Positions 14,431-30,782 of a DNA stretch of 48,823 nt are shown in pieces. The notes below the pieces were generated by a model, which worked only from the letters and a program-made list of their open reading frames with translations, was not told the DNA's origin and did not search any database. Made by a program: the position numbers and the translations under genes. The first letter of the stretch is position 1. Every line of letters begins with the position of its first letter. The stretch is from a virus: IMG/VR virus record IMGVR_UViG_3300044960_000518, positions 1-48,823 of that record, one strand, 5' to 3'.

Positions 14431-14434
14431 GGAG

Positions 14435-14760: not shown

Positions 14761-14808
14761 GCACAGCTTTCGATCTGGATCTGCGACGGGGCGCAGAGCG
14801 GGCGGCCG

Positions 14809-15621
14809 TCATTCCACCATCGCGGCGAGCTGCTTTTCGAGCGCCTCCTGCCTGGCCCCGGCGCGCTTCACCGCCTTCTCGATGTGCGCCTCCATCACGG
14901 GGTCCCGGTGCTCGCCGCACGCGATCCCGTGGTGCCGCCGGGCGCGGCGCAGCGTCGCTTCGATTGCCGCATACCACTTGAGGCACCGCAGCAGCAGGTC
15001 GGCGGCCTTCTCGGCGTGCTTGACCTTCCGCTCCAGGTCGCGACGGTCGGCTGCCTTCTTCGCCGCCTCCCTGGCCCTGTTCAGCGCGGCGATCTTCGCG
15101 GCAGGGCTCGTTGCGGCGTGGTATTCCTCCCGGGCCTGGCGCAGCTCGGCGGCTGTCGTCGGCTTCGTGCCGTTGGCGGTGGCCTTGTTGTGGATCGCCC
15201 TGCGAATGACGGGGTCCTTCTCCGCAGCCAGTTCTCGACATTGCCGCTCAGGAATGGATGCAAAGCGAACCGGGTTCGCCTCCTCGGTCTGTAGCTGATA
15301 GGCGGCCAGTACCTGCTGGATGCGGCGAATCGTGACCCCGTACTCCGCCTCGCAGAACTCCCGCCAGCTGGAGTACGCCAGGGCCTTCCAGCCCTCGCGG
15401 GCCTGGAGCGCCGCGATCAGCGGTGCCGCCTTCTGATACCACTGCCCCGCGGCCTGGCGCCCCTGGTCGAGACAGTCGGCGGCGCGGCCCATGTAATCCT
15501 TCGACTGGTCGGCGGCCGCCCGGGCCTCCGCGGCCGTCATCGGCCGGATGTAAACCTCGACGCCGTTCGCCTCAGGTTGATTCGCAGCCGCCTTGTTGGC
15601 GGCGGTCCCGCTCAGCGCCAT
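14809..15621 (-). CDS. hypothetical protein with HTH-like region and long helices (270 aa)
   Basis: ATG 15619-15621. The segment LAYSSWREFCEAEYGVTIRR followed by IQQVLAAYQLQ resembles DUF3102/ParB-like helix-turn-helix regions. The C-terminal ~120 residues are highly charged helices with coiled-coil character (AEELRQAREE-type heptads, then LERKVKHAEKAADLLLRCLK). A DNA-binding or partition-like role is possible. It may be the last gene of a two-gene unit with 15643-16248. Confidence 0.65.
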   Translation of the reverse strand: MALSGTAANKAAANQPEANGVEVYIRPMTAAEARAAADQSKDYMGRAADCLDQGRQAAGQWYQKAAPLIAALQAREGWKALAYSSWREFCEAEYGVTIRRIQQVLAAYQLQTEEANPVRFASIPERQCRELAAEKDPVIRRAIHNKATANGTKPTTAAELRQAREEYHAATSPAAKIAALNRAREAAKKAADRRDLERKVKHAEKAADLLLRCLKWYAAIEATLRRARRHHGIACGEHRDPVMEAHIEKAVKRAGARQEALEKQLAAMVE

Positions 15622-15642
15622 TGCTGCACTCTCTTTCTGGCT

Positions 15643-16248
15643 CTAGTTCGTGGGCTTCGGCCTGACACCGAAGTCGGGGTACGGGTCGGGCTCGGGCTCG
15701 TCATCGCGCCAGTGGGCGTCGGCCAGCTCGCCGCCGCGCGCCGTGTGGTCGGACCCTTCGCGCTGCAGGTCCGGGTCGTCGGCGATGGCGAACGGGCGGT
15801 CGTCCTGCGGGTGCCACAGCCCCGCCTGGATCTCCTGATGGGTGCCGGCCCCGAAGCGGTCTGACATGACGTTGACGGCCGTCCCCGGGTCCGGCATCGT
15901 GGCCGGGGTTTCCGGGCTCCTGGGCTCGGCATAGCCGTCCCAGCGACCGGGGCGGCGATCCAGCTCGCGGAGGATCGCCGCCCACTGACACAGCGACATC
16001 GGCCGGCCGGCCACGGTCGGCCAGCGATCCTCGCTGGAGATCCGCTCGAGCCTGGGCAGCAACCCCCGGATCTCTTCCAGATCGTCAACGGACAGGCCGC
16101 CGCGGCCGGGCGAAAAGAAGCGGGTCAAGAGGACCGAGAGCTGGCTGAGCCAGCCCGGTCCGCGCGACTGCCGACGGCGTGAGGACGGCTTGCCATCGTC
16201 GGGGGCGCGAGAGGTGCGGCGGGACATGGGGGGCGAGGTGCAGTACAT
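15643..16248 (-). CDS. hypothetical protein (201 aa)
   Basis: ATG 16246-16248 has GGAGG 9 bases upstream. The basic N-terminus (SRRTSRAPDDGKPSSRRRQS) is followed by LSVDDLEEIRGLLPRLERIS, then an acidic, Pro/Asp-rich C-terminus (DDEPEPDPYPDFGVRP). No known domain is recognised. It follows strong hairpins and starts a new minus-strand unit running toward the att region. Confidence 0.6.
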   Translation of the reverse strand: MYCTSPPMSRRTSRAPDDGKPSSRRRQSRGPGWLSQLSVLLTRFFSPGRGGLSVDDLEEIRGLLPRLERISSEDRWPTVAGRPMSLCQWAAILRELDRRPGRWDGYAEPRSPETPATMPDPGTAVNVMSDRFGAGTHQEIQAGLWHPQDDRPFAIADDPDLQREGSDHTARGGELADAHWRDDEPEPDPYPDFGVRPKPTN

Positions 16249-16314
16249 GACGTATCGCCTCCGGGGCCGATGCCGGCGTACAATGACGGCGCGGTCGGGG
16301 ACGACACGCATTCT

Positions 16315-16346
16315 GAGCCTCCGGGGTGATACGCCCCCGGAGGCTC
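16315..16346. terminator. perfect 12-bp hairpin followed by a T-rich tract on the plus strand
   Basis: GAGCCTCCGGGG (16315-16326) and CCCCGGAGGCTC (16335-16346) pair around an 8-base loop; GTTTCTTCT follows on the plus strand. With the next hairpin it insulates the late operon from the genes on its left. The 16249-16594 gap otherwise holds no gene. Confidence 0.65.
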
Positions 16347-16511
16347 GTTTCTTCTGGGGACGGCTCGAGGGTAGTGATGGACGGGGGCCGCGAGCAAAAG
16401 TGCCAGCGGCGAACAGGCGCAGACATACTGATGGGAACATGGTGGACACACCCCGGCCAGGCGGCTACGATGGCGCCGGCGCCGAGGGGCCACAAGACGT
16501 GGGCCAGAGAG

Positions 16512-16550
16512 ACGGGCCGGGGGGGGGGCTTGCTGGGCCCCCCGGCCCGT
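16512..16550 (-). terminator. G/C hairpin closing the late/lysis operon
   Basis: ACGGGCC plus G6 and its exact complement, CCCCCC plus GGCCCGT, flank a short loop, forming a 13-bp stem. On the minus strand it lies 45 bases past the stop at 16595 and is followed by CTCTCTGG. It is a good candidate for the end of the long leftward late transcript. Confidence 0.6.
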
Positions 16551-16594
16551 GTGATTCCATGCGAGTGTAGCGGCGCTGAGGCTGCCGGCCCAGC

Positions 16595-16825
16595 TCATCT
16601 GGGGGCCGGGCGCCGGCGGACGGCCTGGCAGGTGCAGACGGACGCCGGCGCCACATGATCCGGCGGCGCCCCCAGCAGCTTCTTTCCGCCGTGGCCCTGG
16701 ACGCTGCAGAAATGCCATGCCTGGCCGCACAGGTCGCAGGTGCAGCAGCGACGGGGGCAGCGACAGACGCGGATGGTCGCGTAGCCGCAGCTCGGGCAGG
16801 ACGTGGGGGCGCTGGAGGTCCGCAC
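16595..16825 (-). CDS. small Cys-rich zinc-ribbon protein
   Basis: The GTG start (16823-16825) has GGGAG 8 bases upstream; 76 residues. CPSCGYATIRVCRC, CCTCDLCGQAWHFC and a C-terminal CTC provide ten or more Cys residues in CxxC pairs, enough for two zinc sites. It is the last gene before the terminator hairpins. It could be a small transcription or DNA-binding accessory protein. Confidence 0.6.
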   Translation of the reverse strand: MRTSSAPTSCPSCGYATIRVCRCPRRCCTCDLCGQAWHFCSVQGHGGKKLLGAPPDHVAPASVCTCQAVRRRPAPR

Positions 16826-16874
16826 GGCTACAGCTCCCGCCGGTGTTCCGGCGGCAGACGATTCTTGTTGCGCG

Positions 16875-17249
16875 TCACGGATCCGCTCGCCCAAAGCGCC
16901 AGATCGGCAAGTGCGGCGGCATCTGCCCGCCGAAGTAGCAGGCGTCTCCCAGCTCGGCCCGCAGCGCCCGCAGCAGCTCGCAGCAGCGCCCCGGATCGGC
17001 CGCCAGATGCGCGTCATCGAGCAGGCCCCAGAGGACCCGGCAGCGCCGGGCATCGTTGATCCACGGCTCCAGGCCCAGGTCCGGGTAGAGGGCGGCCCGA
17101 TCGACCAGCCAGCGCTCGTGCTCGAGCGCCTGCCGCCAGAACAGACCGGTGATGGCGCGGGGCGGGAAGCGCCGCAGGTCCGCCGGCTCGACGTCATCGA
17201 TCGGCGGGACGCAGGCCCAGGCGAGGGCGAAGGCGGCGACGGTGCTCAC
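16875..17249 (-). CDS. hypothetical protein (124 aa)
   Basis: The GTG start (17247-17249) has GGAGGG about 9 bases upstream. The N-terminus is mildly hydrophobic (STVAAFALAWACVPPIDDV), then FPPRAITGLFWRQALEHERW and DLGLEPWINDARRCRVLWGL, both Trp-rich. The ending has CYFGGQMPPHLPIWRFG. No family is recognised. A 118-bp gap separates it from the nuclease gene. Confidence 0.6.
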   Translation of the reverse strand: MSTVAAFALAWACVPPIDDVEPADLRRFPPRAITGLFWRQALEHERWLVDRAALYPDLGLEPWINDARRCRVLWGLLDDAHLAADPGRCCELLRALRAELGDACYFGGQMPPHLPIWRFGRADP

Positions 17250-17367
17250 GGCGGCCCTCCGCTGGGGCCTATCCGACCCGCGGCCCGGCGGGAGCGGTCG
17301 GGCGCCATTGCCTTCCCGCCCCGCCGGGGCCGCTCTCCCGCTCCCGCGGCACACACAGGCCGCGGCC

Positions 17368-17748
17368 TCACACGGACTCCACAGACGATCCGGCCGGCCC
17401 CCGCCGGCCGCCGTCATAGGGCTCTGCACGGCTGGCGGCGAGCAGCTCGGCATTGAGCGACGGGCCGTTGCCGTCGTCCAGGACCACCTCCGCCAGCATC
17501 CGCCCGTACTTCTCGCGCTCGTCCTTGAAGGTGTTGACCCGGACCTTGCTGCCATGCCGGGCCAGGAGATCGCGCACGAACTGCAGGGCCTCCTTGCCGG
17601 CCGTCGTCGATAGCTCCGGTGCGTCAATGCCGCGCAGCCGTATCCGCTGTCGCGTGAGCACCGAGAAGCCCAGGTCGATCTCCAGGTCGAGCGTGTCCCC
17701 ATCCACCACTCGCTGGATCAGTGCGCTGTACTGGTACACGGCCCTCAC
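17368..17748 (-). CDS. Staphylococcal-nuclease-like (thermonuclease) protein
   Basis: The GTG start overlaps the preceding stop (GTGA); 126 residues. RVVDGDTLDLEIDLGF, RIRLRGIDAPELSTTAGKEA and EREKYGRMLAEVVLDDG hold the SNase features: the DGDT turn, the RxRGIDAPE segment with catalytic Arg and Asp, and Glu/Arg in the ExxYGRxLA segment. These calcium-dependent enzymes cut DNA and RNA. There is no signal peptide, so it acts inside the host, perhaps in host DNA degradation or nucleotide salvage. Confidence 0.88.
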   Translation of the reverse strand: MRAVYQYSALIQRVVDGDTLDLEIDLGFSVLTRQRIRLRGIDAPELSTTAGKEALQFVRDLLARHGSKVRVNTFKDEREKYGRMLAEVVLDDGNGPSLNAELLAASRAEPYDGGRRGPAGSSVESV

Positions 17749-17924
17749 TCCTCGGAGGCCGTCCTGTCGATCGCATGCCGCAGGCCCGCAGCAGTCAGGG
17801 CCGCCAGCAGGGTCGTCCAGGCCGTGGCGTACTCGCCGATCGAGAACTGGTACAGCGCCAGTCCGGCCAGGCCGGCGGCCGCCAGGTACGTCTTCCAGCC
17901 ATCGACCCAGCCCAGAGGGTTCAT
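17745..17924 (-). CDS. small hydrophobic phage protein (59 aa), holin-like
   Basis: ATG 17922-17924 has GGAGG 9 bases upstream, and the stop overlaps the nuclease start (GTGA). GWKTYLAAAGLAGLALYQF and YATAWTTLLAALTAAGLRHA are two hydrophobic segments separated by a short turn, typical of small phage membrane proteins near lysis genes. It could be a holin or antiholin. The assignment rests on hydropathy and position. Confidence 0.6.
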   Translation of the reverse strand: MNPLGWVDGWKTYLAAAGLAGLALYQFSIGEYATAWTTLLAALTAAGLRHAIDRTASEE

Positions 17925-17961
17925 CGCAGGCTTGCCTCCGACGGAATGTGCCGCGCGACGG

Positions 17962-18075
17962 TCAGCGCCGCACGAGCCAGCCGAGCACGGTTAACGCTCC
18001 GATCAGATCGAGCGTGCCCCGGCCGGCCAGCGCAGCCAGGGCAGCGAGAAGATCGAGATCCACGGCGCCCGTCAT
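17962..18075 (-). CDS. putative 37-aa membrane peptide
   Basis: ATG 18073-18075 follows GAGGCGGGG closely. The peptide is almost wholly aliphatic (LDLLAALAALAGRG, then LDLIGALTVLGWLVRR) with a basic end. It fits the gap between the secreted repeat protein and the 59-aa gene, and would be a second small membrane peptide. Evidence is limited to the ribosome site and composition. Confidence 0.4.
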   Translation of the reverse strand: MTGAVDLDLLAALAALAGRGTLDLIGALTVLGWLVRR

Positions 18076-18082
18076 CCCCGCC

Positions 18083-18436
18083 TCAAAACACGCGGACGCG
18101 GACGGCCGGCCGACCGACGCGCACGCCGACGGGGGCGCGCACCCGCACGCGCACGGCAGGCGCGACGACGCGGAAGCGACGGCGGACAACGACCGCCGGG
18201 GCCGCGACGGCGGTGCTCCCGACGTAGCCGGTGAAGGCCGGGGCCGTCACGACCGCCGGGGCTACGACGGGGGCGGCCACGACGGGCACGGCGACGGTCG
18301 GCACGAAGGGCGTGACGAGGCTGAAGGCGCTGTAGCCGTAGCTGCCGACGTGGCCGCGGAAGTAGCCGGCGGAGGCGGGCGCGGCGGGGAGCAGCAGCAG
18401 AGCGAAGGCCAGGGCAAGACGGAGCGGACGGCACAT
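18083..18436 (-). CDS. exported Ala/Val/Pro/Arg low-complexity protein
   Basis: Translation from ATG 18434-18436 gives a clear signal peptide (RPLRLALAFALLLLPAAPASA). An earlier ATG at 18454 is possible. The mature part begins GYFRGHVGSYGYSAF, then consists of AVPVVAAPVV-type repeats and an Arg/Val-rich end (RVRVRAPVGVRVGRP). Short repeat-rich exported proteins of this sort are common in planctomycetes. The function is unknown. Confidence 0.65.
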   Translation of the reverse strand: MCRPLRLALAFALLLLPAAPASAGYFRGHVGSYGYSAFSLVTPFVPTVAVPVVAAPVVAPAVVTAPAFTGYVGSTAVAAPAVVVRRRFRVVAPAVRVRVRAPVGVRVGRPAVRVRVF

Positions 18437-18493
18437 GGCAGATGTCCTCGGCATGATCCTGTGTGATCCCCAATGGTCCCCTGCGATCCAGGG

Positions 18494-19081
18494 CTACTCG
18501 ACCGCGAGCCCGTAGCGCTCGGCAACGGCCAGCAGCTCCTCGGTGGTCAGCGGCTCCATGCCGCTCGATTTCGGCGGCATGGTCTGATTGCTCAGGTGCC
18601 GCGCGAGCTTCTGCAGGCTCGGGGCGTCCAGGTCGCGGAAGTCGCGGCCGTCCGTCAGTACCAGCCCGCCGCCCTTCGACTCATTGCCGCTGCCGTGGCA
18701 GGCGACGCACTTGGCTGCGGCCGACTGGAGGGCGCCCCCCTTCTTCGGGGCGGCGGGGGCCTTCAGTGGCTCGGCCGCGGGCGGCGGAACCTGGCGCTCC
18801 AGCGCACCCAGGCGCTGCTCGATGCGCTGCAGGACTGCCGCCAGGTCGCCGGCTGCAGGCGCCTGCACGGCGGCCGCAGCCGGCGCAGCGACCGCCGGCG
18901 CGACGGGGGCGGCCGGCACGACGGCGGCCGGCGTGTAGGCCGCGGCGTAGGTCGGCACGAATACGGCGACCGGCGCGACGGCCGTCTTGACGACCTTGCG
19001 CACGTAGCAGCCCGCATCGGCGGGCAGGGCCAGAGCCGGCACGCCGATGGCGGCCAGCACGAGCAGGCGCTTCACGCTCAT
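18494..19081 (-). CDS. exported c-type cytochrome (one haem)
   Basis: ATG 19079-19081 overlaps the upstream stop (ATGA); 195 residues. A signal peptide (MSVKRLLVLAAIGVPALALP) is followed by an Ala/Pro/Val linker, a short helix (LQRIEQRLGALERQ) and a C-terminal cytochrome c domain with CVACHG (Cys125, Cys128, His129) and NQTMPP, whose Met168 is the expected sixth ligand. It should bind haem c covalently outside the cytoplasm. A cytochrome is unusual cargo for a phage. The coupled upstream gene also has a CxxCH site. Confidence 0.85.
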   Translation of the reverse strand: MSVKRLLVLAAIGVPALALPADAGCYVRKVVKTAVAPVAVFVPTYAAAYTPAAVVPAAPVAPAVAAPAAAAVQAPAAGDLAAVLQRIEQRLGALERQVPPPAAEPLKAPAAPKKGGALQSAAAKCVACHGSGNESKGGGLVLTDGRDFRDLDAPSLQKLARHLSNQTMPPKSSGMEPLTTEELLAVAERYGLAVE

Positions 19082-20496
19082 GGTAATGCGATACCTCGCA
19101 GGGCGGATTGCAGTACGCCGTACAGCTCCTCGAAATGCTCCCGTCGCACGGCGACCGGGGGCTTCTGTATCAGACCGGCGAGGACCGGGTCCAATCTTCC
19201 GGTCGCCTTCAGCTGCGCGTCCAGCGCCGCGACGAGCTGCTGCGGCGTGCAGCCCAGCTCGCGGGCCGCATCCTCGAGCCCCAGGTCGCGCTCGGCGTAG
19301 GCGTGCCAGGCAGCGGCATACGCGCGGGCCAGCTCGGCGGGCTTGAGCCCGCAGGCCCGCCCGAGCGCCCGCGCATAGGCTTCCTGGTCGGCCTTGACGT
19401 GCCCCTCGAGGTCGGAGAGGTAGAGCTGTCGCAGGCGGACGAGCTTCGCGTAATCGGGCGACTGCAGGGAGAGGGCCCCGTGGTAGACCTGCCGCGCCCA
19501 GTCATTGATGGGTCGAATGCCCTCGACATGACAGCGGATGCACGACAGCCCGATATGGACGCGTCGGTCGGTGTCCGTCGCCTGCCCGTCGCCGGCGATG
19601 AAGTCGGGGGCGGTGTCCTGTCGCTCGCCCTTACCGTTCTGCAGCCAGAAGGCAAAGAGCCCGTTGGGCAGCGTGCCGTACTGCTCGCTCGCGTCTCCCT
19701 CCGGCGGCTCGGCATCGCCGTCAAGCAGTCGCAGGGTATTCTGCCGGTCCGTGCTCGTCTTGTAATCCTGGGTGTACCAGTAGCCGCCCGTGACGGCCCC
19801 CAGCCGCTTGATCCCGCGATTGTTGAGTGTCACGCTCGAGCGCGCGACGACGGCCGCGATCTCTTTTCGGGCCTTTCGCGCCAGCCGCTCATCGACGCCG
19901 ACCAGCTCCTGAAAATCCTTTTCCTTCTTCCCCAGGCCGAGGAAATCGTAATAGCCATGCCCTTCCCGCCCAGCCTGGATCGCCGTCCGGTAGAGGAACC
20001 AGTCGGCCCGGACGATCGGTGCTGCGCTCTGCGTCTGCTCGGTCAGCCCGGCGCTTGCACCCGGCGGCAGCCAGGGAGCCGCCGCGTCCACGATCCTGTC
20101 CCGCCGGAATGTCCGGCCCGTGCTCCGCGAGCGGACCGTGACGGTCCGCCGCAGCTTCACGTGGAAGTACGGATCGACCCCGGCCAGTCGCTCCCAGACG
20201 ACCGGGTCCCAGCCGTAGTCGAGGAGGTTGACGCGCCACAGTCCCGGCGCGACCTGCGCGGGCGGAACAAGCTCGGCCTCGCGGCTGAGGCTGTTAACCC
20301 AGAAGCTGAGGACACGTGCGAGTTCAGCGCGGTCGGCCTCGGGGGTCGCGTAGGCGGACAGGTAGCGGAGATGGGGGCGGAGCGCGGGCTGCTGCAGCTG
20401 CAGGTCGGCCCAGGCGCGCACGACATCGGCGGCGGGGCCCGTGACGTCGGCTGCCGCCCCGGCCGGCAGCAGGGCAAGCAGCAGCGCCGTCCGCAT
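19078..20496 (-). CDS. exported protein with a single CxxCH haem motif (472 aa)
   Basis: Signal peptide MRTALLLALLPAGAAA. The long middle region has no domain I can name (LSFWVNSLSREAEL, LWRVNLLDYGWDPVVWERL, KLRRTVTVRSRSTGRTFRRD). HIGLSCIRCHVEGIRPINDW near residue 318 carries one haem-c attachment site, followed by helices. It resembles exported planctomycete haproteins with a single buried CxxCH. It is translationally coupled to the cytochrome c downstream, so the two may form an electron-transfer pair. The role in a phage is unknown. Confidence 0.7.
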   Translation of the reverse strand: MRTALLLALLPAGAAADVTGPAADVVRAWADLQLQQPALRPHLRYLSAYATPEADRAELARVLSFWVNSLSREAELVPPAQVAPGLWRVNLLDYGWDPVVWERLAGVDPYFHVKLRRTVTVRSRSTGRTFRRDRIVDAAAPWLPPGASAGLTEQTQSAAPIVRADWFLYRTAIQAGREGHGYYDFLGLGKKEKDFQELVGVDERLARKARKEIAAVVARSSVTLNNRGIKRLGAVTGGYWYTQDYKTSTDRQNTLRLLDGDAEPPEGDASEQYGTLPNGLFAFWLQNGKGERQDTAPDFIAGDGQATDTDRRVHIGLSCIRCHVEGIRPINDWARQVYHGALSLQSPDYAKLVRLRQLYLSDLEGHVKADQEAYARALGRACGLKPAELARAYAAAWHAYAERDLGLEDAARELGCTPQQLVAALDAQLKATGRLDPVLAGLIQKPPVAVRREHFEELYGVLQSALRGIALP

Positions 20497-21003: not shown

Positions 21004-21789
21004 TCAGGCGGGCGCCGGGTAGACCTGCTTGCCGTCGATCAGGAGCACGACTCCGCGGGGCACCGGGGGCGCGACGGGGGGGAGCGGCGCGGCCGGGCGG
21101 AGCGCGCCGGGGTAGAGCCGCGCCAGGGCCGCGACGTCCTCCGGGGTCGGCCGATCGACCGTCGCCGACACCGTCGGCGCCATCAGTCCTCGCCCCAGGT
21201 GATTGAGGCCGCGGAAGTGGCCATATTCGTGGGCGACGACGCGCAGCAGGTCGATCACTCCGCGCGGCATCGGGCCGAGCTGGATCACGTAGGGCGTGGC
21301 GCGATCGAGGCGCATCCGCTGGGGCCGGGGCCCCGGCAGCTGGCAGTCAGCCAGCACGCCGCCGGGCCCATCGGACGGGTAATCCGTCGTGATGAGCAGG
21401 TCGGGGCGCTCGCCGGCGCCGGCCTCGCGGAGGGTCAGGCCGGGCAGCTCGGCCGTCCACAATCCCGCGGCCTGCAGCACCGCCGCGCGGGCCTGCTCAT
21501 CGCTGATCCCCTGGAGCGGCCGGCCGCCGCTCTCGAAGACGAAGGTGGCGGCGGCCGGCGGCAGCGCCGCCGCCCCGGCCGTGGCCGGCAGCGTGTCCGG
21601 GCAGCCGCAGAAGCGCGGCGCCTCCAGCTCGGCGATCGTGTCCGGGTCGAGATGACCGTGAGCGTCGAGGCCGAAGCGCCGCTGGAAGGCCTCGACGGCC
21701 GCATCGATCGCCTCGATCGTGATCACGCCCTCGGCCGGCAGCCAGCCGTAGCGGCGCAGGCGGGGCACGACGCGCTCGAAGAGCTTCAC
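21004..21789 (-). CDS. matrixin-type zinc metalloprotease with PG-binding prodomain
   Basis: The GTG start (21787-21789) overlaps the upstream stop (GTGA); 261 residues. Residues 1-57 match the peptidoglycan-binding/MMP prodomain (LRRYGWLPAEG, AFQRRFGLDAHGHLDPDTI). A cysteine-switch-like PRFCGCPD (58-65) has one extra residue compared with PRCGxPD. The catalytic domain has DGPGGVLADCQLPG, VVAHEYGHFRGLNH (187-197 HExGHxxGxxH; Glu188) and Met-turn LMAP. There is no signal peptide. Placed after a holin-like gene, it is a candidate lysin acting on the planctomycete envelope. Confidence 0.85.
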   Translation of the reverse strand: MKLFERVVPRLRRYGWLPAEGVITIEAIDAAVEAFQRRFGLDAHGHLDPDTIAELEAPRFCGCPDTLPATAGAAALPPAAATFVFESGGRPLQGISDEQARAAVLQAAGLWTAELPGLTLREAGAGERPDLLITTDYPSDGPGGVLADCQLPGPRPQRMRLDRATPYVIQLGPMPRGVIDLLRVVAHEYGHFRGLNHLGRGLMAPTVSATVDRPTPEDVAALARLYPGALRPAAPLPPVAPPVPRGVVLLIDGKQVYPAPA

Positions 21790-22097
21790 GGGGCCGTCCT
21801 CGGAATCGGAGGGAAAGGGCGGGGCGGGGCTGTCTCCCACCCCCCGCCGTCTCCGCCGCCCCCGACATCGCGGGGGGCGTCGGCGAGGCGGTCCATGCGC
21901 TCGCCGACCCGATGAATCGCTGCAGTCATGGCCGAGAGCTGGCTAGCCCACGTCTCCCGGTTCGCCTTCTCCTGGCGCTCCCAGGCGCGGACCTGGGCCA
22001 GGAAGACGACCAGTAATAGCGCCGACATGGCGCCGATCGCGAACACGGCCACGCCGTACTCTCCGAGCTTGGCCAGGTACGGCAGGATCGTGTCCAT
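21786..22097 (-). CDS. single-span membrane protein, holin candidate
   Basis: ATG 22095-22097; 103 residues. The N-terminal hydrophobic segment VAVFAIGAMSALLLVVFL is followed by a coiled-coil-like charged helix and a Gly/Pro-rich tail. It is translationally coupled to the metalloprotease (GTGA overlap). This layout fits a holin or pinholin paired with a lysin, or a protein that anchors the protease. There is no classic holin signature. Confidence 0.55.
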   Translation of the reverse strand: MDTILPYLAKLGEYGVAVFAIGAMSALLLVVFLAQVRAWERQEKANRETWASQLSAMTAAIHRVGERMDRLADAPRDVGGGGDGGGWETAPPRPFPPIPRTAP

Positions 22098-22183: not shown

Positions 22184-23350
22184 CTACGCCCGGGCCAGGA
22201 CCATCAGGCCGTAATCCTCCGGCCAGTCCGACTCCACGCGCCAGCCGCCGGCCGCGACCAGCTCGAGGACCGCCGCGCGGGTCCCCGGCCCGTCATCATT
22301 CGGGCCGAAGACGGAGTTATGGGTGTCGTGGAAGGCCAGGTAGCGCCGCACGTGGCTCGCATGACGGGCCAGCACGGCGGCGACATGCTCATGATTGTGG
22401 AGGGTGTCCACAAAGAGGAGGTCGCACGCCGCGGGCGGAAGCGCGAGGCAGTCTGCGTGGACGAAGCGGAAGGCCACGCCCTCCAGGCGAGCGCACGCCT
22501 GCAGGTCCGCGACGTGCTCATTGGGGCCGGCGCTGTCCACGGCCGTCAGTGAGCCGCCGCCCGCATCGGCGAGTCCGGCGAGCAGCGCGGTGGTACTGCC
22601 GCCCCGGTGGACGCCGAACTCGATGACCGACTGACAGCGTGCGGCCAGCGCCCGGAGCCGGGGCAGATGAGCGCGGATGTGATCGTCCTGTCTTATCAGG
22701 TGCTCGTAGCGCACTTCGAGCCGGCGCCGGCAGCGAAAATCCTTGTCCCAGCCCTCCGTCGTGATGACGCCGTGGGCGCAGACGGACGGCACCTCGTGGC
22801 GGTGCCGCACGAGGGAGGGCCAGTGCTTGTAGTAGCGCCCCGCCTGGTTGCTGCCGGCCAGTCGAGCGACCTTGAGATCGCAGTTGGCCGGGATGTCATC
22901 CCAGTGCTCGAGCAGGAACTGAGCGAAGGTCCGGGTCATCACGGCGCCCTGGAGGCCGTAGACGAGTCGGCTGTCGGGCGTGTACCAGTTGGGGCCCTCG
23001 CCGAAGGAGAGCCGATTGCCTCCATTGGTGCTCAGCCCGCCGCAACCCATCAGCCCGGTCGTCAGCGGCTCCCAGTGCAGCAGGTTGTGCGCGAGGTGCC
23101 GGTTGACCTCGCTGTCGTCCTCCAGAAGGACGAACCAGGGGACGCCGGCGGCCACGGCCCGGCGGATGGCGAGACGAAAATTCTCGTTGCTGCGCCGATC
23201 GGGGATGGTCTCAAGCTGGCCGGCGTGCTCCACGGCTTCCGTGTCCATGGTGACAAGGACCGGCCAGTCCCAGTCCGAGGCGTGCAGGTCGGCAAGCAGG
23301 AAGGACAGTTCCGGCAGTCGGCGGCGGCAGCTGGTGATGACGGCGAGCAT
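22184..23350 (-). CDS. glycosyltransferase-like domain fused to a SAM methyltransferase
   Basis: The ATG 23348-23350 start gives 388 residues (a TTG at 23371 is also possible). Residues 1-200 look like a GT-A-type glycosyltransferase: MLAVITSCRRRLPELSFLLA and WFVLLEDDSEVNRH with an EDD acidic motif. Residues ~225-388 form a class I methyltransferase: VIEFGVHRGGSTTALLAGL, TAVDSAGPNEHVADL, CDLLFVDTLHNHEHVAAVL and YLAFHDTHNS, as in the methyltransferase-24/cephalosporin hydroxylase-like group. It ends the decoration cassette and would add and methylate a sugar. Confidence 0.75.
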   Translation of the reverse strand: MLAVITSCRRRLPELSFLLADLHASDWDWPVLVTMDTEAVEHAGQLETIPDRRSNENFRLAIRRAVAAGVPWFVLLEDDSEVNRHLAHNLLHWEPLTTGLMGCGGLSTNGGNRLSFGEGPNWYTPDSRLVYGLQGAVMTRTFAQFLLEHWDDIPANCDLKVARLAGSNQAGRYYKHWPSLVRHRHEVPSVCAHGVITTEGWDKDFRCRRRLEVRYEHLIRQDDHIRAHLPRLRALAARCQSVIEFGVHRGGSTTALLAGLADAGGGSLTAVDSAGPNEHVADLQACARLEGVAFRFVHADCLALPPAACDLLFVDTLHNHEHVAAVLARHASHVRRYLAFHDTHNSVFGPNDDGPGTRAAVLELVAAGGWRVESDWPEDYGLMVLARA

Positions 23351-23358
23351 GGGCAGGC

Positions 23359-24432
23359 TCAGACGAAACAATCATGGGACCGGGGGGCGCGGAGCAGCTC
23401 GGCGACCCGGCGGTTCTTGGCGTCGAAGAGGCAGCGGCCGCAGCCGCGGGCGTCGAAGGCCTCGAAGTCGCGCTGCTTTGCGGCGCTCGCCCACAGGGAG
23501 CGGAATGATTGCTCCTGGAGCGAGCCGACAAGCCCGCGTCGGGTGTAGCTGGTGTTGCAGCAGCGATAGACGTTCAGGTCGGCACCGATGTACGGCGCGA
23601 AATGCTGCTGGTAGCAGGTGCGGTAATCAGGCGGGCGCATGTGCTCGATGCGCTCGCGGAACAGGTTATAGACGTGAAAATCCGAGCGAGCCAGCGCCTC
23701 GGTCGCCTGGCACAGCGCTTCGGCCTCGCGTCCCCAGCCGTCGAAATAGCGCTCGCCCTCGGCCTGGTACAGGGCCGCGATGCGGAAATTGGCGGCGCCA
23801 GCCTCTCGGGCCAGCTCGCCGGCGGCGAAGACCTCCCGCCAGTTCTCCCGGCTGACGACGAAGCTGACGCCGACGGTCGGACCGGGCCGCGTGCGGGTGA
23901 GCAGCCGCACTCCCGTCCAGGCCCGCGACCAGTGCTGCTCGCTGACGCCGCGTGTCCGGCTGTAGGTCTGGGGCGTCCCGGCGTCAATCGACACGCGCAC
24001 CCAGGCGGCGCAGCGCAGCACCTCGGCCAGCTCGGCCGTCATGCGGACGCCATTCGTCACCAGGCCCAGCTCCATCCCTCGATCGAGCACAGCCTGGCAG
24101 ATCGTCTCGATGTCGGGATGGGCCGTCGGCTCGCCACCGCCTGTCAGCTCAACGGCCCGCACGCCCATCGCCGCGCAGTCATCGAGGATGGCGAGCGCCC
24201 GGGCGGTGTCGATCTGGCGCGTGGGATTGTGCGGCACCTTGGCCGTGGGGTCGGCGAACAGCTCGGCATTGGCCAGCCCCGAGGCGCGGTGCAGGCACCA
24301 GCCGCAATCCTGGTTGCAGAGATCGCTGATCGACAGATAGACGTGGATCGGGGCCGGCTGCTCGCCGGCGCGGAGCGCGGCGAGGTGCAGGGGGAAGCGT
24401 GCGGCCCGGTCCTGGCTGTAGAGCTGCTGCAC
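23359..24432 (-). CDS. radical SAM enzyme
   Basis: GTG 24430-24432 lies directly after the FkbM stop, with GGAGG just upstream; 357 residues. The iron-sulphur motif CNQDCGWC (Cys39, 43, 46; C-x3-C-x2-C), ELTGGGEPTAHPD, LVTNGV and VRVSIDAG are the SAM-radical core. A Cys-rich C-terminal region (CYQQHFAPYIGADLNVYRCC, then CGRCLFDAKN) suggests a SPASM-like auxiliary cluster, as in peptide- or sugar-modifying members. It likely performs a radical modification of a peptide or glycan. Its neighbours point to a virion fibre. Confidence 0.88.
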   Translation of the reverse strand: MQQLYSQDRAARFPLHLAALRAGEQPAPIHVYLSISDLCNQDCGWCLHRASGLANAELFADPTAKVPHNPTRQIDTARALAILDDCAAMGVRAVELTGGGEPTAHPDIETICQAVLDRGMELGLVTNGVRMTAELAEVLRCAAWVRVSIDAGTPQTYSRTRGVSEQHWSRAWTGVRLLTRTRPGPTVGVSFVVSRENWREVFAAGELAREAGAANFRIAALYQAEGERYFDGWGREAEALCQATEALARSDFHVYNLFRERIEHMRPPDYRTCYQQHFAPYIGADLNVYRCCNTSYTRRGLVGSLQEQSFRSLWASAAKQRDFEAFDARGCGRCLFDAKNRRVAELLRAPRSHDCFV

Positions 24433-25245
24433 CTAGCCTCCGATCACCAGGTTCCACAGGCGCCCGGGAGATGCCAGCACCTCGCCGGGGTGCACGGGCC
24501 GCGCCGTGCCGTCTCCCTCGATCGCCCGCAAGCTGCCGGGCAGCATGCCGAGTAATCGTCCAAGCGCCGCCCGCTCGGCATCGGCCGAATCGAAGAAATC
24601 GCTGCAGTGCTCAAACAGTACCAGACAGCCGGGGGAGGCTGCCAGGAGCCCCGCAGCCCCGAGGATCGCGGGAATGTCCCACCCCTCGGCATCCACCTTG
24701 AGCAGCTGGATCGGCGGCCGTACCACGTCATCGACACGGCGCACCTGGACCGGCAGGGCCACGGCGGCGGCCCTCGCGCGGAGCGTCCCGCTGCCAGCCC
24801 GATCCCGGTCACAGTGGAGGGTGGCCGATCCTTCCTGCTCGCCGGCCGCCCACGGCAGGAGAGTGGCGCGCACGCCGTTGAGCCGGCAGTTCGTGGCGAG
24901 GCGGCGCTGCGTGTCGGGGTTGGGCTCCAGGGCGATGACGTGTCCGGTCTCGCCGATCAGCTTATCCAGCAGCAGCGTGTAGTAGCCGAGATGCGCGCCG
25001 ACATCGACGCAGCGCCAGCCCGGCCGGACCGTGCGAAAGAGCCAGAGATTCACCCAGGATTCCCAGAACCCATCCAGCGCCAGGTGTGGTGCGACCTCCG
25101 TGTCATCGGGATCGATCTCGAAGGGGCACTCGCCGAGGACGCGCACGATGGGATCGCGGCCGGCCGGCTGATAGCTCGCAGCCCGCAGCCGGCAGAAGTC
25201 CTCGAACTCGACGCGGCCGCGCTCGGCCGCACGCCGGGCATTCAT
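24433..25245 (-). CDS. FkbM-family methyltransferase
   Basis: ATG 25243-25245 overlaps the glycosyltransferase stop (ATGA); 270 residues. WRCVDVGAHLGYYTLLLDKL (motif I), HVIALEPNPDTQRRLATN, LPWAAGEQEG and IQLLKVDAEGWDIPAILG are characteristic of FkbM SAM-dependent O-methyltransferases. They often cap sugars in surface glycans. The gene is coupled upstream to the GT71-like enzyme, so it probably methylates the sugar that enzyme adds. Confidence 0.88.
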   Translation of the reverse strand: MNARRAAERGRVEFEDFCRLRAASYQPAGRDPIVRVLGECPFEIDPDDTEVAPHLALDGFWESWVNLWLFRTVRPGWRCVDVGAHLGYYTLLLDKLIGETGHVIALEPNPDTQRRLATNCRLNGVRATLLPWAAGEQEGSATLHCDRDRAGSGTLRARAAAVALPVQVRRVDDVVRPPIQLLKVDAEGWDIPAILGAAGLLAASPGCLVLFEHCSDFFDSADAERAALGRLLGMLPGSLRAIEGDGTARPVHPGEVLASPGRLWNLVIGG

Positions 25246-26891
25246 GCGGATTCCTCCGGGCCCAGCGGGATCAGCTCCACCTTGCAGCGCTCATGCTCGA
25301 GCCACTGTCCGTGCCAGGAGCCGTCCCCGTTCTCGGTGGCGAAGAATGTCGGCTTGCCGTCGATGTCGGAGACGCAGAGCGTGCCGCCGACGACCGCCCA
25401 GCTTACCTCGCAGCGGGCCAGGCCGCGGCCGATGCGATTGTCCTCGACGAATCGAAGGACGCGCTCGTCGATGCCGACGCGGCGGTAGCGGAAGGCGCGG
25501 CCGAGCAGCCGGGCCGCCGTATCGGCGTCATCGCCGATCGGCACCTCCGGCTGCCAGAGCCGGCCATTCCACAGGCGGCGCAGCTCGTCGAGATGGGCCA
25601 GGCACTGGCCGGGATTGGTCAGGCACTCGCGACCTTTCGGGTAGCCGGCCAGCGTCGGCTTGTTCTGCGCGCCGTGCTCGAACAACAGCCGGCCCGCCAG
25701 GTCGTGCTGCAGGATGGCGCCGCCGTTCCAGCCGGCCGCCTTCGGCGGCATGGCGTAGGGCGCGCCGCACCTGGCCCAGGCCAGGTGAAATGTCGATTTG
25801 TCGCCGAAGATCTGCTTGTACCAGTAATCGCTGTGCTCATTGATCGCGCGCGTGACCTGGAGCGGCCGCCAGCATTTCGCCTTGTGGATGAGCAGTTGGC
25901 CCGACTCGAAGTCCACCTCGTCGCGGTACTCCAGGCCGGCGTTGCGCCACACGACTTCCGGCAGCCACTCCTTGCGATCGTAGGGAGGCAGGTCGGGCCA
26001 GAAGACCGCGCCGGCCGCGCGATATTGCGGATGGTCGAAGAGGAAGGTCGGGTCGGCGACCGGCACGTTGTCCGCGTCGAGGAACAGCACCTCCTCGTAG
26101 CGGCACGCCAGGATCGCAGCGATCTTCGATTCCCAGCCGGCGAGGATGCGCATGCCGTTGCCGGGCTGCCGCTCCCAGGCTCGCAGGTCGATCACGTCCA
26201 CGCCGAAGGGCTTGACCAGCTCGGTCAGGGTCGGGTCCCATTCGATCGGCCCGAGGTGGCAGAAGGTGATCGGCAGCGTGCAGCCGAGGCGGCGCAGCTC
26301 CTTGACCAGGACCCACGCCCCTGGCAGGTAGCCGTGGAGCAGGTGCTTGCCGCTCGAATGACCGGGCTTGGCCGAGACGCACGAGACGATGCCGCGCCCC
26401 TGCCCGTCGCCGGGGTAGCGCCAGTCCTTATTGGCCGCGCGGTCGAGCAGGATGCGATGGGCTTCCATGACATTGGGCCAGCCGGTCCAGCCGTCCGGCC
26501 AGGGACCGACGGGGCCATGCTCGAGCAGCTCGATGACGGCCTCCACGGGCGTCGTGCTCGTCAGCTCTTCCGGTCGGATCATGGAGTCAGCCTCGAAATC
26601 GGGGCAGGTCGTGCAGCAGCGCACGCCGGCGTCGGGGTCGCCGAGCGTGCAGCGGCCGTGCAGCGTGCAGCGGCGGACGTGCTTGCGGGGGCAGTTGCAG
26701 CCGCGGGGATCGAGGACGGCGCCGAGGTGCGTGCAGAGGGTGCTGCGCGGCGGCGGGGAGGGCGCTGTGCCTGCGCCGAAACAGGGCGCGTAGAAGGCGC
26801 GGTAGTCGTCCCGCGTGCGGTACAGCTCGCAGCGCCGGCAGCCGGTGGCGGCAAGCTGGCCGGCGAGAATGTGTTCGCAACAGGGACTCAT
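25242..26891 (-). CDS. GT71-like glycosyltransferase with Cys-rich N-terminal module
   Basis: ATG 26889-26891 overlaps the fibre stop (ATGA), giving 549 residues. The first 100 residues hold 13 Cys (SPCCEHILAGQLAATGCRRC, CNCPRKHVRRCTLHGRC, CCTTCPDFE), likely zinc- or disulphide-bound. Residues ~120-549 match alpha-mannosyltransferase/MNN1-like GT71: CRYEEVLFLDADNVPVADPT (DxD at 272-274), FWPDL, FESGQLLIHKAKCWRPLQV and FGDKSTFHLAWARC. It would transfer a sugar from a nucleotide donor. It sits directly after the Ser-Gly protein, its most likely acceptor. Confidence 0.85.
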   Translation of the reverse strand: MSPCCEHILAGQLAATGCRRCELYRTRDDYRAFYAPCFGAGTAPSPPPRSTLCTHLGAVLDPRGCNCPRKHVRRCTLHGRCTLGDPDAGVRCCTTCPDFEADSMIRPEELTSTTPVEAVIELLEHGPVGPWPDGWTGWPNVMEAHRILLDRAANKDWRYPGDGQGRGIVSCVSAKPGHSSGKHLLHGYLPGAWVLVKELRRLGCTLPITFCHLGPIEWDPTLTELVKPFGVDVIDLRAWERQPGNGMRILAGWESKIAAILACRYEEVLFLDADNVPVADPTFLFDHPQYRAAGAVFWPDLPPYDRKEWLPEVVWRNAGLEYRDEVDFESGQLLIHKAKCWRPLQVTRAINEHSDYWYKQIFGDKSTFHLAWARCGAPYAMPPKAAGWNGGAILQHDLAGRLLFEHGAQNKPTLAGYPKGRECLTNPGQCLAHLDELRRLWNGRLWQPEVPIGDDADTAARLLGRAFRYRRVGIDERVLRFVEDNRIGRGLARCEVSWAVVGGTLCVSDIDGKPTFFATENGDGSWHGQWLEHERCKVELIPLGPEESA

Positions 26892-28408
26892 TCCGTCACA
26901 GTGACCTGAAGGAGGTTTTGCCCTGTGGCATTGGGACAACAGTTCCCGGGCGGCCCCAAGTTCCACTCCAGTGAAAGGGGAGAGCAGCTCGCGAATGTCG
27001 GTCTCAGGTTCCCTCCGGACAGTACCAGGCAGCCATCGCACTCAAGCACAAAGTCTTGCGGTGTCGTACCCTGGCAGCGCAGGAACAGATAAAGGATGCC
27101 GCCGGGCGTGGTCAGGCTCCCCTCCCATTGGCCCGCCGACGTATTGTAGGTCAGCGCGGCGGATATCGGCTCAAAACAATCGGTCACGCTTACAGTGGCC
27201 GTCAATACTGTCGGCAACGGGTTCGGGCAACACGGACCCGTGATCGCACCTCCTGACCCCGACGCTCCCGAGCCACTGCTGCCGCTGACCGACCCCGGCG
27301 TGCTGCCCGAGCCGGACTGCGATCCGCTCGCCGCGCTGCCGCTTGCGCCGCTGGCCTCGCTCCCCGGTGCCGAGCCCGACTCCGAGCCCGCCGCGCTGCC
27401 CGACGCGGAGCCTCCCTCCGAGCCCGGCGCCTCACTGCCGCTCGCCTCACTGCCGCTCGCCGATCCCGCTTCCGAGCCGCTCTCGGAGCCGGCCGCGCTG
27501 CCCGAAGCGCTGCCGGCCTCGGAGCCGGGCGCTGAGCCACTCGCGCTGCCCGCCTCGCTGCCCGCCTCGGAGCCGCTTGCACTGCCGGCCCCGCTCGCAC
27601 TGCCGGCCCCGCTCGCACTGCCCGCTTCGGAGCCGCTGGCCGATCCCGCCTCGGAGCCGCTGGCGGCCACCGATCCCGATGCGCTGCCCGAAGCGCTGCC
27701 GACCGCGCTGCCCGAGATCGAGCCGCTCACCGAGCCGACCTCGGAGCCGGATGCGGAGCCTGATTCCGAGCCGGCCTCACTCCCCGAAGCGGAGCCGGGC
27801 AGACTGCCCGATGCGCTGCCTGACGCCGAGCCCGACGGCGATCCGGCCTCTGATCCGCTCGCGCTAGCCGAGGCCGAGCCGGGCGCGCTCCCCGAGATCG
27901 AGCCGCTCGCGCTGCCCGAAGCGCTGCCGATCTCACTGCCGGAAGCGCTCCCGGAAGCGCTGCCACTCGCGCTCCCCACCTCCGAGCCGCTCGCGCTGCC
28001 ACTCGCGCTCGCGCTGCCACTGCCGCTCGCGCTCGCGCTGCCACTCGCGCTGCCACTGCCGCTCGCGCTCCCGCTCGCGCTCCCGCTCGCGCTTCCGCTC
28101 CCCGCGCCGCAGCAGACCCCGATGTAGACCGCGCGATCGCTCGCGTAGCCACCGAGCACCGCAGCGATCCGGCCGGGGCCGACGGAGCAGCACTCGCCCT
28201 GGCCGTAGACTGGCCGGTCTTCCGCGTAGCCGGCCAGGACCCCCAGGATGCGGACCGCGCCCCGCGGCGGATGGAAGCCGGTGCAGCCCCCCGCCCCGGA
28301 GCCCGCCCCCGAGCCCGTCGCGGCATTGCACGTCCCGGCGTAGACGGCCCGGCCGGCAGCGTACCCGACCAGGACCGCCTCGAATCGCTGGACCTGCAGC
28401 AGTGGCAC
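26888..28408 (-). CDS. Ser-Gly repeat tail-fibre-like protein
   Basis: 506 residues from GTG 28406-28408. The N-terminal ~110 residues contain three degenerate copies of a GYA(A/E/S)(G/D)R(A/P)VY unit, each followed by Cys. About 290 residues of irregular GSASGSEAGS-type repeats follow, then a globular Cys-rich end (CCPNPLPTVLTATVSV, DFVLECDGCLVLSGG, GNCCPN). Like collagen-type fibres, it is probably a long flexible spike with a C-terminal tip. The Ser-rich shaft is a natural O-glycosylation substrate for the coupled enzymes downstream. Confidence 0.75.
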   Translation of the reverse strand: MPLLQVQRFEAVLVGYAAGRAVYAGTCNAATGSGAGSGAGGCTGFHPPRGAVRILGVLAGYAEDRPVYGQGECCSVGPGRIAAVLGGYASDRAVYIGVCCGAGSGSASGSASGSASGSGSASGSASASGSGSASASGSASGSEVGSASGSASGSASGSEIGSASGSASGSISGSAPGSASASASGSEAGSPSGSASGSASGSLPGSASGSEAGSESGSASGSEVGSVSGSISGSAVGSASGSASGSVAASGSEAGSASGSEAGSASGAGSASGAGSASGSEAGSEAGSASGSAPGSEAGSASGSAAGSESGSEAGSASGSEASGSEAPGSEGGSASGSAAGSESGSAPGSEASGASGSAASGSQSGSGSTPGSVSGSSGSGASGSGGAITGPCCPNPLPTVLTATVSVTDCFEPISAALTYNTSAGQWEGSLTTPGGILYLFLRCQGTTPQDFVLECDGCLVLSGGNLRPTFASCSPLSLEWNLGPPGNCCPNATGQNLLQVTVTE

Positions 28409-28416
28409 CGAAATCT

Positions 28417-28944
28417 CTACTCGTTAGCATCGACGTACCAGCAGTCCGCCCCGTCCGCCCAGGACAGGGTTGCCGGATCATAAATCTGCTCCTTGGCCGG
28501 GTAGCGCCCCTCCACCTTCACCAACGACGTGATCCGAACGAACGTCACGACCGGAGACAGGGGAGCCACGTTAACCAGCCCCGTCTCCGGGTCCGCCGTC
28601 CCGAGCACCCGAAATCCCGGATAGCCCTTGCGAAGCTTCCATTCCCCCTCCTTCGCGCCCCAGATTTCCCCCGCCGCCGGCGTCCCATCCGCCGGATCGT
28701 AGAGCACTCCCGCCGGGAAGGCGGCATGGGCCTGGCCGTAGCTCGCCGCCGCCATGTCGATCGGCCCATTGACCAGGAGCTGCCTCGGATCGAGCCCATC
28801 GACGTCCGGCAGCGCGACGTTGACGGTCCCATCGTCATTTGTCGAGACGACCTGGAGGAGGGCGAAGGCCGGCGCCGTCTCGGCAGCCGTGTTGTACACG
28901 TCCACCCAGTGGACCTGACTCAGGGGCTCGACCGGCGTGTTCAC
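28417..28944 (-). CDS. hypothetical tail/baseplate-associated protein
   Basis: GTG 28942-28944 overlaps the upstream stop (GTGA), with a purine-rich ribosome site (AAGGGAAG); 175 residues. It is beta-rich (VHWVDVYNTAAETAPAFALL, GTVNVALPDVDGLDPRQLLV, then WGAKEGEWKLRKGYPGFRVL) and resembles small virion connector proteins between hub and fibre. It may attach the Ser-Gly fibre to the baseplate; no family is recognised. Confidence 0.65.
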   Translation of the reverse strand: MNTPVEPLSQVHWVDVYNTAAETAPAFALLQVVSTNDDGTVNVALPDVDGLDPRQLLVNGPIDMAAASYGQAHAAFPAGVLYDPADGTPAAGEIWGAKEGEWKLRKGYPGFRVLGTADPETGLVNVAPLSPVVTFVRITSLVKVEGRYPAKEQIYDPATLSWADGADCWYVDANE

Positions 28945-30782
28945 AGGGGCTTCCCTTTCCACAGGCTGGGGTCGCGCTCGCCGAGGCCTCCGGGACGGCC
29001 TCCGGCACCATTGGCCAGGGCGCGCTGCGGCGGGGCGAGGTACTGCAGGCGCAGGCGCTCCGGGAACGTCGGCACATAGAGGTTGTGCTCAAAGTTGAGC
29101 GAGGCGTGCGTCTCGGCGCCGCCGGGTCCGACACTCCAGGTCACCTGCTGCACGGCTCCGCTGAGGGCAATGGGCACGATGCCGTTGTAGACGCGCTCCT
29201 GGCCCAGCTGAGGCGCGTACCTGGCGGCGGCCGCGGCCAGGTAGTAATTCGCCATCACGGCCGCGCGCTGCGCATCACTCACAATGCCCGTCAGCCCGTG
29301 CGTCACCGCGTTGTACAGGCCGATGACATTGAGCTGCACGTCCTCGTGCCGGATCACGGCTGCCGGCGCCCCGGTCTGGACCGCGGCCGGGCCGCTCGCC
29401 GCCTCGAAGCGCACGATCTGGTTGGTCACGGCATCGCGGACCTGGCAGCCTGTCTGAAGGACCAGCTGGGCGGGGGCGCTGATGAGCCGGTCCACGCCAT
29501 TAATCTTCACGGTCTTGCGCAGGAAAACATACTGACTGAAGGTCACCACCATCCAGATCGGATCGATCGAAAAGGCCACCCGTACCTCGTCATCCGTGCC
29601 GGTATTTCCGCTTGGCGCATCCTTATTGTGTCTCACCCCGGTCGCGGGGCGATAGTGCGCGCCGAACACCTGCGCGGGCCGGTCCCTGCTATAGCCGTCG
29701 TAGAACGGCTGATCGAGGGGCCGGCCATCCGGGCCGATCAGGTTCGGATCGTTCGCCTGCGGCACCAGCTGCTCGACCTGGGTGTCCTGGGGGACGATCT
29801 GCTGCACGCGCTGGATGGGTCCGTAGCCGGGGACGGTCAGCGGTCTGGCCTGGCCGAGCAGGCGGGCCGCGGGATCGAGGTTGACGATCTGGTAGCAGCG
29901 ATAGACGCTCTCGGCAGCCAGGGCCTGGGCCTGCCGCTGGCTGAGCCGGTCGGTCCCCTGGATGTTCTTGAAATTTGGCGGATAGCACTCCGCAAAGGGG
30001 TAGCCTTCCAGCGCCCCGAACGTGCCGACGACTGGCGCGTAGCTCAGGTAGCGGAGCGGTCGGTAGCTGCCGTCCCATTCCTTCCCGACCGCCTCCAGGG
30101 CCAGGCGCATCTGGTAGCGGACCGGGGCGCCCTGCAAGAGGATGCGATCGGGGGCGGGCGGCGAGGTGATGCTCGGTCCATCATGCGCGATGCTGCCATC
30201 GGGGAGTGGCCCACCCGAGCCGACCGGCGCCACGAGCACCGTGTTGGTCAGCGGCTGATAGATCACCCGGCAGCCGATCCGCTCGCACAGCTGGGTCAGT
30301 GCGAAGGCTGGATTGGTCCCATCCCATTCCGTGGCCGGATAGATTTCTTCGGTGCTCGTGGCGACCGTCGGCAAATTCAGCGTGTAGGCCTCCTCCCCCA
30401 TCGCGGCGAAGCAGAGCGCGATGAGCTGGGGGACGGTCCGGGCCGACCAGGCCAGAACGCGGCCGTGCGGATCGCGCTGGTTGTAGCTGCCGCGGAGGAT
30501 GCCGAATTCGCTCCAGCGCCAGCGACGATCCTGGATCGTCAGCTGCAATACCCGGCCCGATTCGTCGGCGATCTGATGGACACTGAGGAGCCGGCAGCCC
30601 GGCAGGGCCACGGTCCCGACGCCATCGCTGATGACCAGGGTGCCGAAGGGTGCAAAACCGCCCGACTGGGGCTGGACGCGAAGGACAGCCACACCCGGCT
30701 GCGTGCCGTGCGAGCAGGTGTAGCTGCACGATTCGACGGCCAGGGCCCCAGGCCAAGACGCGACGCCGTGCCGATCGGCCAT
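28941..30782 (-). CDS. tail tip / baseplate hub-like protein (613 aa)
   Basis: ATG 30780-30782 has GGAG 8 bases upstream. The early segment VLQLTIQDRRWRWSEFGI followed by SYNQRDPHGRV and GRVLAW-type strands, then TNPAFALTQLCERIGCRVIY, resembles phage hub proteins of the gp27/tail-associated family (a first beta-barrel domain, then FALTQLCERIGC-type helices). It lies between two tail genes. It would form the ring at the tail tip below the tape measure. Confidence 0.65.
   Translation of the reverse strand: MADRHGVASWPGALAVESCSYTCSHGTQPGVAVLRVQPQSGGFAPFGTLVISDGVGTVALPGCRLLSVHQIADESGRVLQLTIQDRRWRWSEFGILRGSYNQRDPHGRVLAWSARTVPQLIALCFAAMGEEAYTLNLPTVATSTEEIYPATEWDGTNPAFALTQLCERIGCRVIYQPLTNTVLVAPVGSGGPLPDGSIAHDGPSITSPPAPDRILLQGAPVRYQMRLALEAVGKEWDGSYRPLRYLSYAPVVGTFGALEGYPFAECYPPNFKNIQGTDRLSQRQAQALAAESVYRCYQIVNLDPAARLLGQARPLTVPGYGPIQRVQQIVPQDTQVEQLVPQANDPNLIGPDGRPLDQPFYDGYSRDRPAQVFGAHYRPATGVRHNKDAPSGNTGTDDEVRVAFSIDPIWMVVTFSQYVFLRKTVKINGVDRLISAPAQLVLQTGCQVRDAVTNQIVRFEAASGPAAVQTGAPAAVIRHEDVQLNVIGLYNAVTHGLTGIVSDAQRAAVMANYYLAAAAARYAPQLGQERVYNGIVPIALSGAVQQVTWSVGPGGAETHASLNFEHNLYVPTFPERLRLQYLAPPQRALANGAGGRPGGLGERDPSLWKGKPL

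Follow-up and report, generated by a model that had tools for sequence, protein, structure and literature searches.

Pairing of a Ser-Gly rod gene with a GT71-type glycosyltransferase gene in tailed phages suggests glycosylation of the virion by its own enzymes

The glycans on mycobacteriophage virions are attributed to glycosyltransferases that the phages themselves encode. As far as the citing source relates, they lie at the C-termini of capsid and tail-tube proteins (Freeman 2023, as cited in PMC12619734), and a shielding role has been proposed for them. In staphylococci, adhesins with Ser-Asp dipeptide repeats (SDR adhesins) are glycosylated by the dedicated glycosyltransferases SdgA and SdgB, which protects them against proteolysis (PMC3794999). 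Those adhesins are bacterial cell-wall proteins, and SdgA and SdgB are GlcNAc-transferases of a family other than the one described below. We know of no FkbM or radical SAM enzyme in that system. The serine-rich repeat glycoproteins (SRRPs), served by GtfA/B and GlyE (PMC7661464, PMC5207161), combine a long Ser-rich rod, nearby enzymes and a variable glycan with features of their own, namely the initiating enzymes GtfA/B, accessory Sec export and a wall anchor. Ser-Gly repeats carry dense glycans in the proteoglycan serglycin (PMC7570499), but this is a vertebrate protein whose glycosaminoglycan is initiated by a xylosyltransferase, and the likeness extends to the acceptor only. Glycosylation of phage virions is thus known and so, separately, are Ser-repeat glycoproteins served by dedicated glycosyltransferases (PMC12619734, PMC3794999); our literature search returned nothing relevant on phage Ser-Gly repeats or tail-fibre glycosylation.

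The locus analyzed here shares features with these systems. As in the mycobacteriophages, so far as the source describes them, glycans would be carried by virion proteins, but the candidate acceptor is a dedicated Ser-Gly rod, and the enzyme is of GT71 type and paired with an FkbM methyltransferase. A dedicated glycosyltransferase (GT) linked to a repeat protein recalls the SRRP and SDR systems; unlike in the SRRPs, the GT71 gene lies in a phage structural operon and the repeat protein has neither signal nor anchor. The window, that is, the whole stretch of DNA analyzed, is the complete 48,823-base IMG/VR virus record IMGVR_UViG_3300044960_000518. The first-pass annotation had described a fibre-decoration cassette of five genes joined by ATGA overlaps or near-zero gaps, and all five are exactly where it placed them, on the minus strand at 22184-28408 (Table 1). 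In the direction of reading they encode the rod protein, the GT71 enzyme, the FkbM enzyme, a radical SAM/SPASM protein and a GT-like/Methyltransf_24 fusion. An ATGA overlap joins the end of the rod gene to the GT start (26891), the GT71 and FkbM genes overlap at 25242-25245, the FkbM and radical SAM genes abut (24433/24432), and the end of the radical SAM gene overlaps the TTG start of the last gene (23359-23371), which has an alternative ATG seven codons inside.

Table 1. The cassette genes and the gene directly upstream, with the basis of each assignment
Feature	Position	Strand	Basis
Ser-Gly rod protein, 506 aa	26888..28408	-	three-repeat head, rod, C-terminal domain
GT71-type glycosyltransferase, 549 aa	25242..26891	-	PF11051; alignment; AF2 model; Foldseek
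FkbM-family methyltransferase, 270 aa	24433..25245	-	PF05050, TIGR01444 over cut-offs
Radical SAM protein with SPASM domain, 357 aa	23359..24432	-	PF04055, PF13186; CxxxCxxC
Fusion of GT-A-like N-terminal half (putative) and Methyltransf_24	22184..23371	-	PF13578; weak PHROG 854 match; LEDD motif
Gene directly upstream of rod	28417..28962	-	reading of translations

The structural genes of the window, from a terminase-like protein, portal and capsid through to the tail tube, are also on the minus strand, and the cassette sits past the tail genes, ahead of a small 103-aa gene and a gene for a protein with peptidoglycan-binding and matrixin metallopeptidase domains (21004-21840, minus strand), which lies just past the cassette. 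Reading of the translations shows that the gene directly upstream of the rod has a C-terminus (VRITSLVKVEGRYPA...) resembling that of the gene at the same place in a related contig, L005, with a looser likeness to the counterparts in L002-L004. An integrase domain (12974-15241) and a Prim-Pol protein are encoded beyond the cassette, and the phage is therefore probably temperate. Past the lysis region, an overlapping gene pair on the minus strand has c-type cytochrome features (18494-19081, with a Cytochrome_CBB3 match just under the cut-off, and 19078-20496, with a CxxCH motif seen by eye). At 43525-46092 (minus strand), a Phage Mu F-like protein carries a Peptidase_C39 domain, an unusual fusion. 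The search against Rfam gave no match.

The rod protein begins with a head of three imperfect repeats of ~30 residues with conserved Cys, continues with a Ser-Gly(-Ala/Glu) rod of ~320 residues, and ends with a domain of ~110 residues common to the window and L005. Ser accounts for 116 and Gly for 80 of the 321 residues in the Ser-Gly region, with AGY and TCN codons mixed for Ser, and Ser-Gly rods are present in relatives spanning 35-71% GC. A high-GC composition artefact as the source of the Ser-Gly reading could be discarded, given the mixed Ser codons and the rods found also at 35-55% GC. Between groups of relatives the C-terminal domain varies, from none to at least five kinds, as does the length of the rod. 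The translation, which starts MPLLQVQRFEAV and ends VTVTE, shows no signal peptide or LPXTG anchor. The structure model of the rod head is poor (pLDDT 48), so that the case for attachment to the virion is built on gene order. In L002 and L021, capsid, major tail and tape measure genes are followed by two genes and then the rod, with the GT next in L002; the tape measure of L002 matches its PHROG at 7.6e-45, and that of the window was not identified by PHROGs. From this gene order only, we infer that the rod sits at the tail tip. In two low-GC phages (contigs of ~49-210 kb), the Ser-Gly protein ahead of the GT also has a HELGH metalloprotease-like motif (L008 8475-9932, L013 8506-9954).

The GT71-like enzyme with a Cys-rich head that the first-pass annotation had recognized is well supported: PF11051 (Mannosyl_trans3) matches at 79.5 bits against a cut-off of 22, and the N-terminal ~100 residues are rich in Cys, a feature confined to the window and L005 among the loci compared. 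Each of the 37 GTs aligned has a PF11051 match at E <= 0.01, and the catalytic residues are conserved, with DAD (D272-A273-D274), K256, G363-D364, H406 and K411 invariant in the alignment. The AF2 model has a mean pLDDT of 84, mostly over 90 in the core. Foldseek placed the yeast alpha-1,3-mannosyltransferase MNT2 (PDB 7xjv) first, at 1.1e-12, followed by UGGT, glycogenin, XXYLT1 and the streptococcal SRRP enzyme GlyE; MNT2 was also first in a profile search of solved sequences (3.4e-8). The window enzyme is thus predicted to have a GT-A fold with an intact metal-binding DxD, nearest in its model to MNT2, with which it shares fold, DxD and Pfam family. MNT2, however, is a eukaryotic Golgi enzyme that extends O-glycans, whereas the phage GT would need either to start on Ser or to extend a first sugar. 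The nearest protein in BFVD comes from an uncultured member of Caudovirales and bears a methyltransferase-domain annotation. A scan of genome contigs with the GT yielded one fragmentary match, from a MAG classified under Bacillota; across the remaining genomes of a Bacillota sample of 297, there was none.

Searching viral contigs with one GT sequence recovered three loci, and searching with the alignment recovered 60. Of the 56 GT71 loci with at least 0.9 kb upstream, 41 have a Ser-Gly gene directly ahead of the GT on the same strand (39 by scripted count, plus L007 and L024, added by hand because the GT envelope ran into the preceding gene). Many of these loci are close relatives, and single linkage at 85% GT identity reduces the set to 29 clusters; at this level, 11 of 25 clusters have the rod next upstream. 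Across the 970 predicted genes of the loci and the window, 50 are Ser-Gly rich, 42 of them immediately upstream of the GT. On the GT tree, the rod label changes 3 times against a shuffled mean of 13.4, a difference that near-copies make easier to obtain, and the rod-less GTs are mostly long-branched. The reciprocal scan with rod-head sequences found 55 viral loci, and a GT71 gene comes next after the rod in all 35 contigs with at least 700 nt beyond it (these fall into 21 groups when heads are compared at 95% identity and into 8 at 80%). Judging from these contigs, the link between rod and GT71 is a conserved gene pair and not a local accident. The first-pass annotation had named homologues routinely lacking the fibre as evidence against its proposal, and such enzymes do exist in part: the GTs of 15 of the 56 loci are divergent homologues without a rod, so the GT71 family as such is not tied to a Ser-Gly acceptor. 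Queried by tblastn, the INPHARED phages gave no match with three GTs, at E limits of 1e-5 or 1e-3, and none with two heads at a limit of 0.01; PHROGs had no match for the window GT or two rod heads. In a freshwater clade, ~0.5 kb between rod and GT contains a Cys-rich open frame (L021 9475-9950, L027 6708-7060); in the window and L005 a different Cys-rich extension is on the GT itself instead of in a separate open frame.

The FkbM and radical SAM/SPASM identities assigned at first pass hold, both over curated Pfam or NCBIfam cut-offs. The FkbM protein scores 54.1 with PF05050 (cut-off 22.7) and 75.5 with TIGR01444 (cut-off 37.7). Where there was enough sequence, FkbM follows the GT in 20 of 22 rod-bearing loci versus 5 of 14 rod-less ones; in L036 and L040, both rod-less, it is fused to the GT. 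The radical SAM protein scores 56.2 with PF04055 (cut-off 29.5) and 23.3 with the SPASM family PF13186 (cut-off 21.5), and has the motif CNQDCGWC. It belongs to no named maturase equivalog, the best being TIGR04317 at 75 bits against 380 and all 25 families listed falling under their cut-offs, and its nearest solved sequence is BlsE, a sugar-nucleoside decarboxylase (2e-8). One relative was found in viral contigs, in L063, which carries it within a large sugar-nucleotide and glycosyltransferase cassette. Distant relatives occur in eight phage records; in MW202801, the radical SAM gene follows the major capsid gene and a small gene and precedes genes for a glycosyltransferase, PhyH, a methyltransferase, NodB and a glycosyltransferase. 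As to the proposed GT-methyltransferase fusion, the methyltransferase stands (Methyltransf_24, 37.5 against 26.3, residues 250-348), while the GT half, residues 1-235, reaches no family cut-off and has no Pfam match, its indications being a weak match to the PHROG 854 glucosyltransferase (E 0.0029) and an LEDD motif seen by eye. No viral relative of this gene was found.

Neither the radical SAM protein nor the GT-methyltransferase has a homologue that we saw in the other GT71 loci, and we therefore regard both as accessory, not conserved with the pair as judged from the loci compared. The co-occurrence of fibre and enzymes predicted at first pass is accordingly borne out for GT71 and mostly for FkbM, and not for the other two; on the loci compared, we reject the exact five-gene set as one fixed, conserved unit. 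Other genes for glycan enzymes take the downstream positions in relatives, such as a hexapeptide transferase and a DegT aminotransferase (L005) or a GT4 (L003), and in L012 a GT2 domain is fused behind the GT71. Soon after the phage cassette, L003 also encodes a 2014-aa RHS-repeat protein with an LEDRSVPG-type start (13860-19904), which suggests host flank.

As a control, we scanned with the major tail protein of these phages and recovered sister phages with neither the rod head nor GT71. Seven of them nevertheless have a Ser-Gly rod (L166, L168-L171, L173, L186). In the six whose loci we read (L171 excepted), this rod is a C-terminal fusion to a tail protein that resembles the one ahead of the rod in L002. 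A GT4 gene is next after this rod in all five loci with at least 900 nt beyond it. Overlapping genes continue the series in L168 and L169: one for a radical SAM protein, then an open frame of 168 aa that looks like a methyltransferase on reading, lacks a Pfam match and is disrupted in L168, and lastly one for a GT2 protein. We saw no radical SAM gene in L170 or L173. No significant similarity links the radical SAM proteins of L169 and the window, or the sister GT2 protein and the last protein of the window. As rod-then-GT recurs here with non-homologous enzymes, cassettes joining a rod to glycan enzymes seem to have formed on more than one occasion, and the general idea of rod glycosylation is stronger than the first-pass annotation could know.

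The coupling of the rod with GT71, and mostly with FkbM, fits virion self-glycosylation. We think it probable, on balance, that a tail rod of the virion is O-glycosylated by the phage's own GT71 and that its glycan is O-methylated and varied by exchangeable enzymes. The Ser-Gly protein would be a tail-tip or fibre component, with its head binding the tail, its rod serving as an extended, disordered acceptor and its C-terminal domain as an exchangeable tip. Late in infection, before assembly, GT71 would use a nucleotide sugar, GDP-mannose or a similar donor, to glycosylate many rod serines, and the FkbM enzyme would O-methylate the sugar so attached; in the window phage, the radical SAM and GT/methyltransferase proteins may further alter or extend the glycan. 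The tail would thereby acquire a mucin-like brush of glycans, the chemistry of which shifts as accessory enzymes are swapped, and the benefit may be shielding, stiffening or adsorption.

Other substrates have to be weighed. The rod might be an unmodified flexible linker, with capsid, tail tube or some other virion protein as the target of the enzymes, as in the mycobacteriophages; the described glycosylation does concern these proteins, as far as the source covers it (PMC12619734 citing Freeman 2023), the radical SAM relative of MW202801 comes after a major capsid gene and a small gene, and rod-less GT71 homologues exist. Yet rod and GT are inseparable in the sampled contigs and a GT comes after both rod types, which makes this reading unlikely. 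Phage glycosyltransferases that alter host glycans are well known, and in a probably temperate phage (integrase domain at 12974-15241) the enzymes could modify a host surface glycan for receptor masking or serotype conversion, adjoining the rod since both are receptor-related. We find this quite unlikely: the GT71 pairing is reciprocal, and the GT gene is adjacent to the rod gene and overlaps it within the structural block, the second rod type has an adjacent GT of its own, and no cassette protein matches the GtrA family of GtrABC serotype conversion.

For the radical SAM protein, the SPASM domain, the weak matches to peptide maturases (all far under cut-off) and the conserved Cys of the rod head would suit modification of the Ser-Gly peptide rather than of a sugar, by epimerisation or a Cys crosslink to the head, in the manner of ribosomal peptide maturation. 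The same head Cys, however, is present in relatives whose loci showed no radical SAM gene, the viral relative lies in a sugar-nucleotide cassette, and BlsE acts on a sugar-nucleoside; peptide modification is in our view distinctly improbable. Many phage glycosyltransferases glycosylate DNA (PMC12619734), and the GT and SAM-dependent enzymes might likewise modify phage DNA, but no base-hypermodification gene was seen among the window genes scanned and the enzymes are positioned with the rod. FkbM enzymes, moreover, act on sugars or small-molecule hydroxyls, and a DNA target seems to us extremely improbable.

Glycosylation of the rod thus remains our preferred reading, and it may extend well beyond the window, whose many relatives have come to light through environmental DNA only. 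In L034, a DUF1559 protein (8e-44) is encoded ~6 kb past the GT; since we take this family to be typical of Planctomycetota, at least some of these phages are probably prophages of that phylum. We put at about even chances the broader proposal of a widespread and so far undescribed class of tailed phages, with hosts probably in part Planctomycetota, in which a mucin-like Ser-Gly tail rod is accompanied by its own initiating GT and by exchangeable tailoring enzymes, including radical SAM proteins, and which would have arisen at least twice with non-homologous enzymes and would diversify the glycan coat of the virion. The pair, in at least 35 contigs, offers a specific and testable acceptor and enzyme for protein O-glycosylation in phages, and could serve as a compact module for glycoprotein engineering. 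If the proposal is true, the tail proteins of many environmental phages would be densely and variably glycosylated, with consequences for adsorption, for shielding and for the evolution of phage glycosyltransferases that are now often annotated as DNA-modifying.
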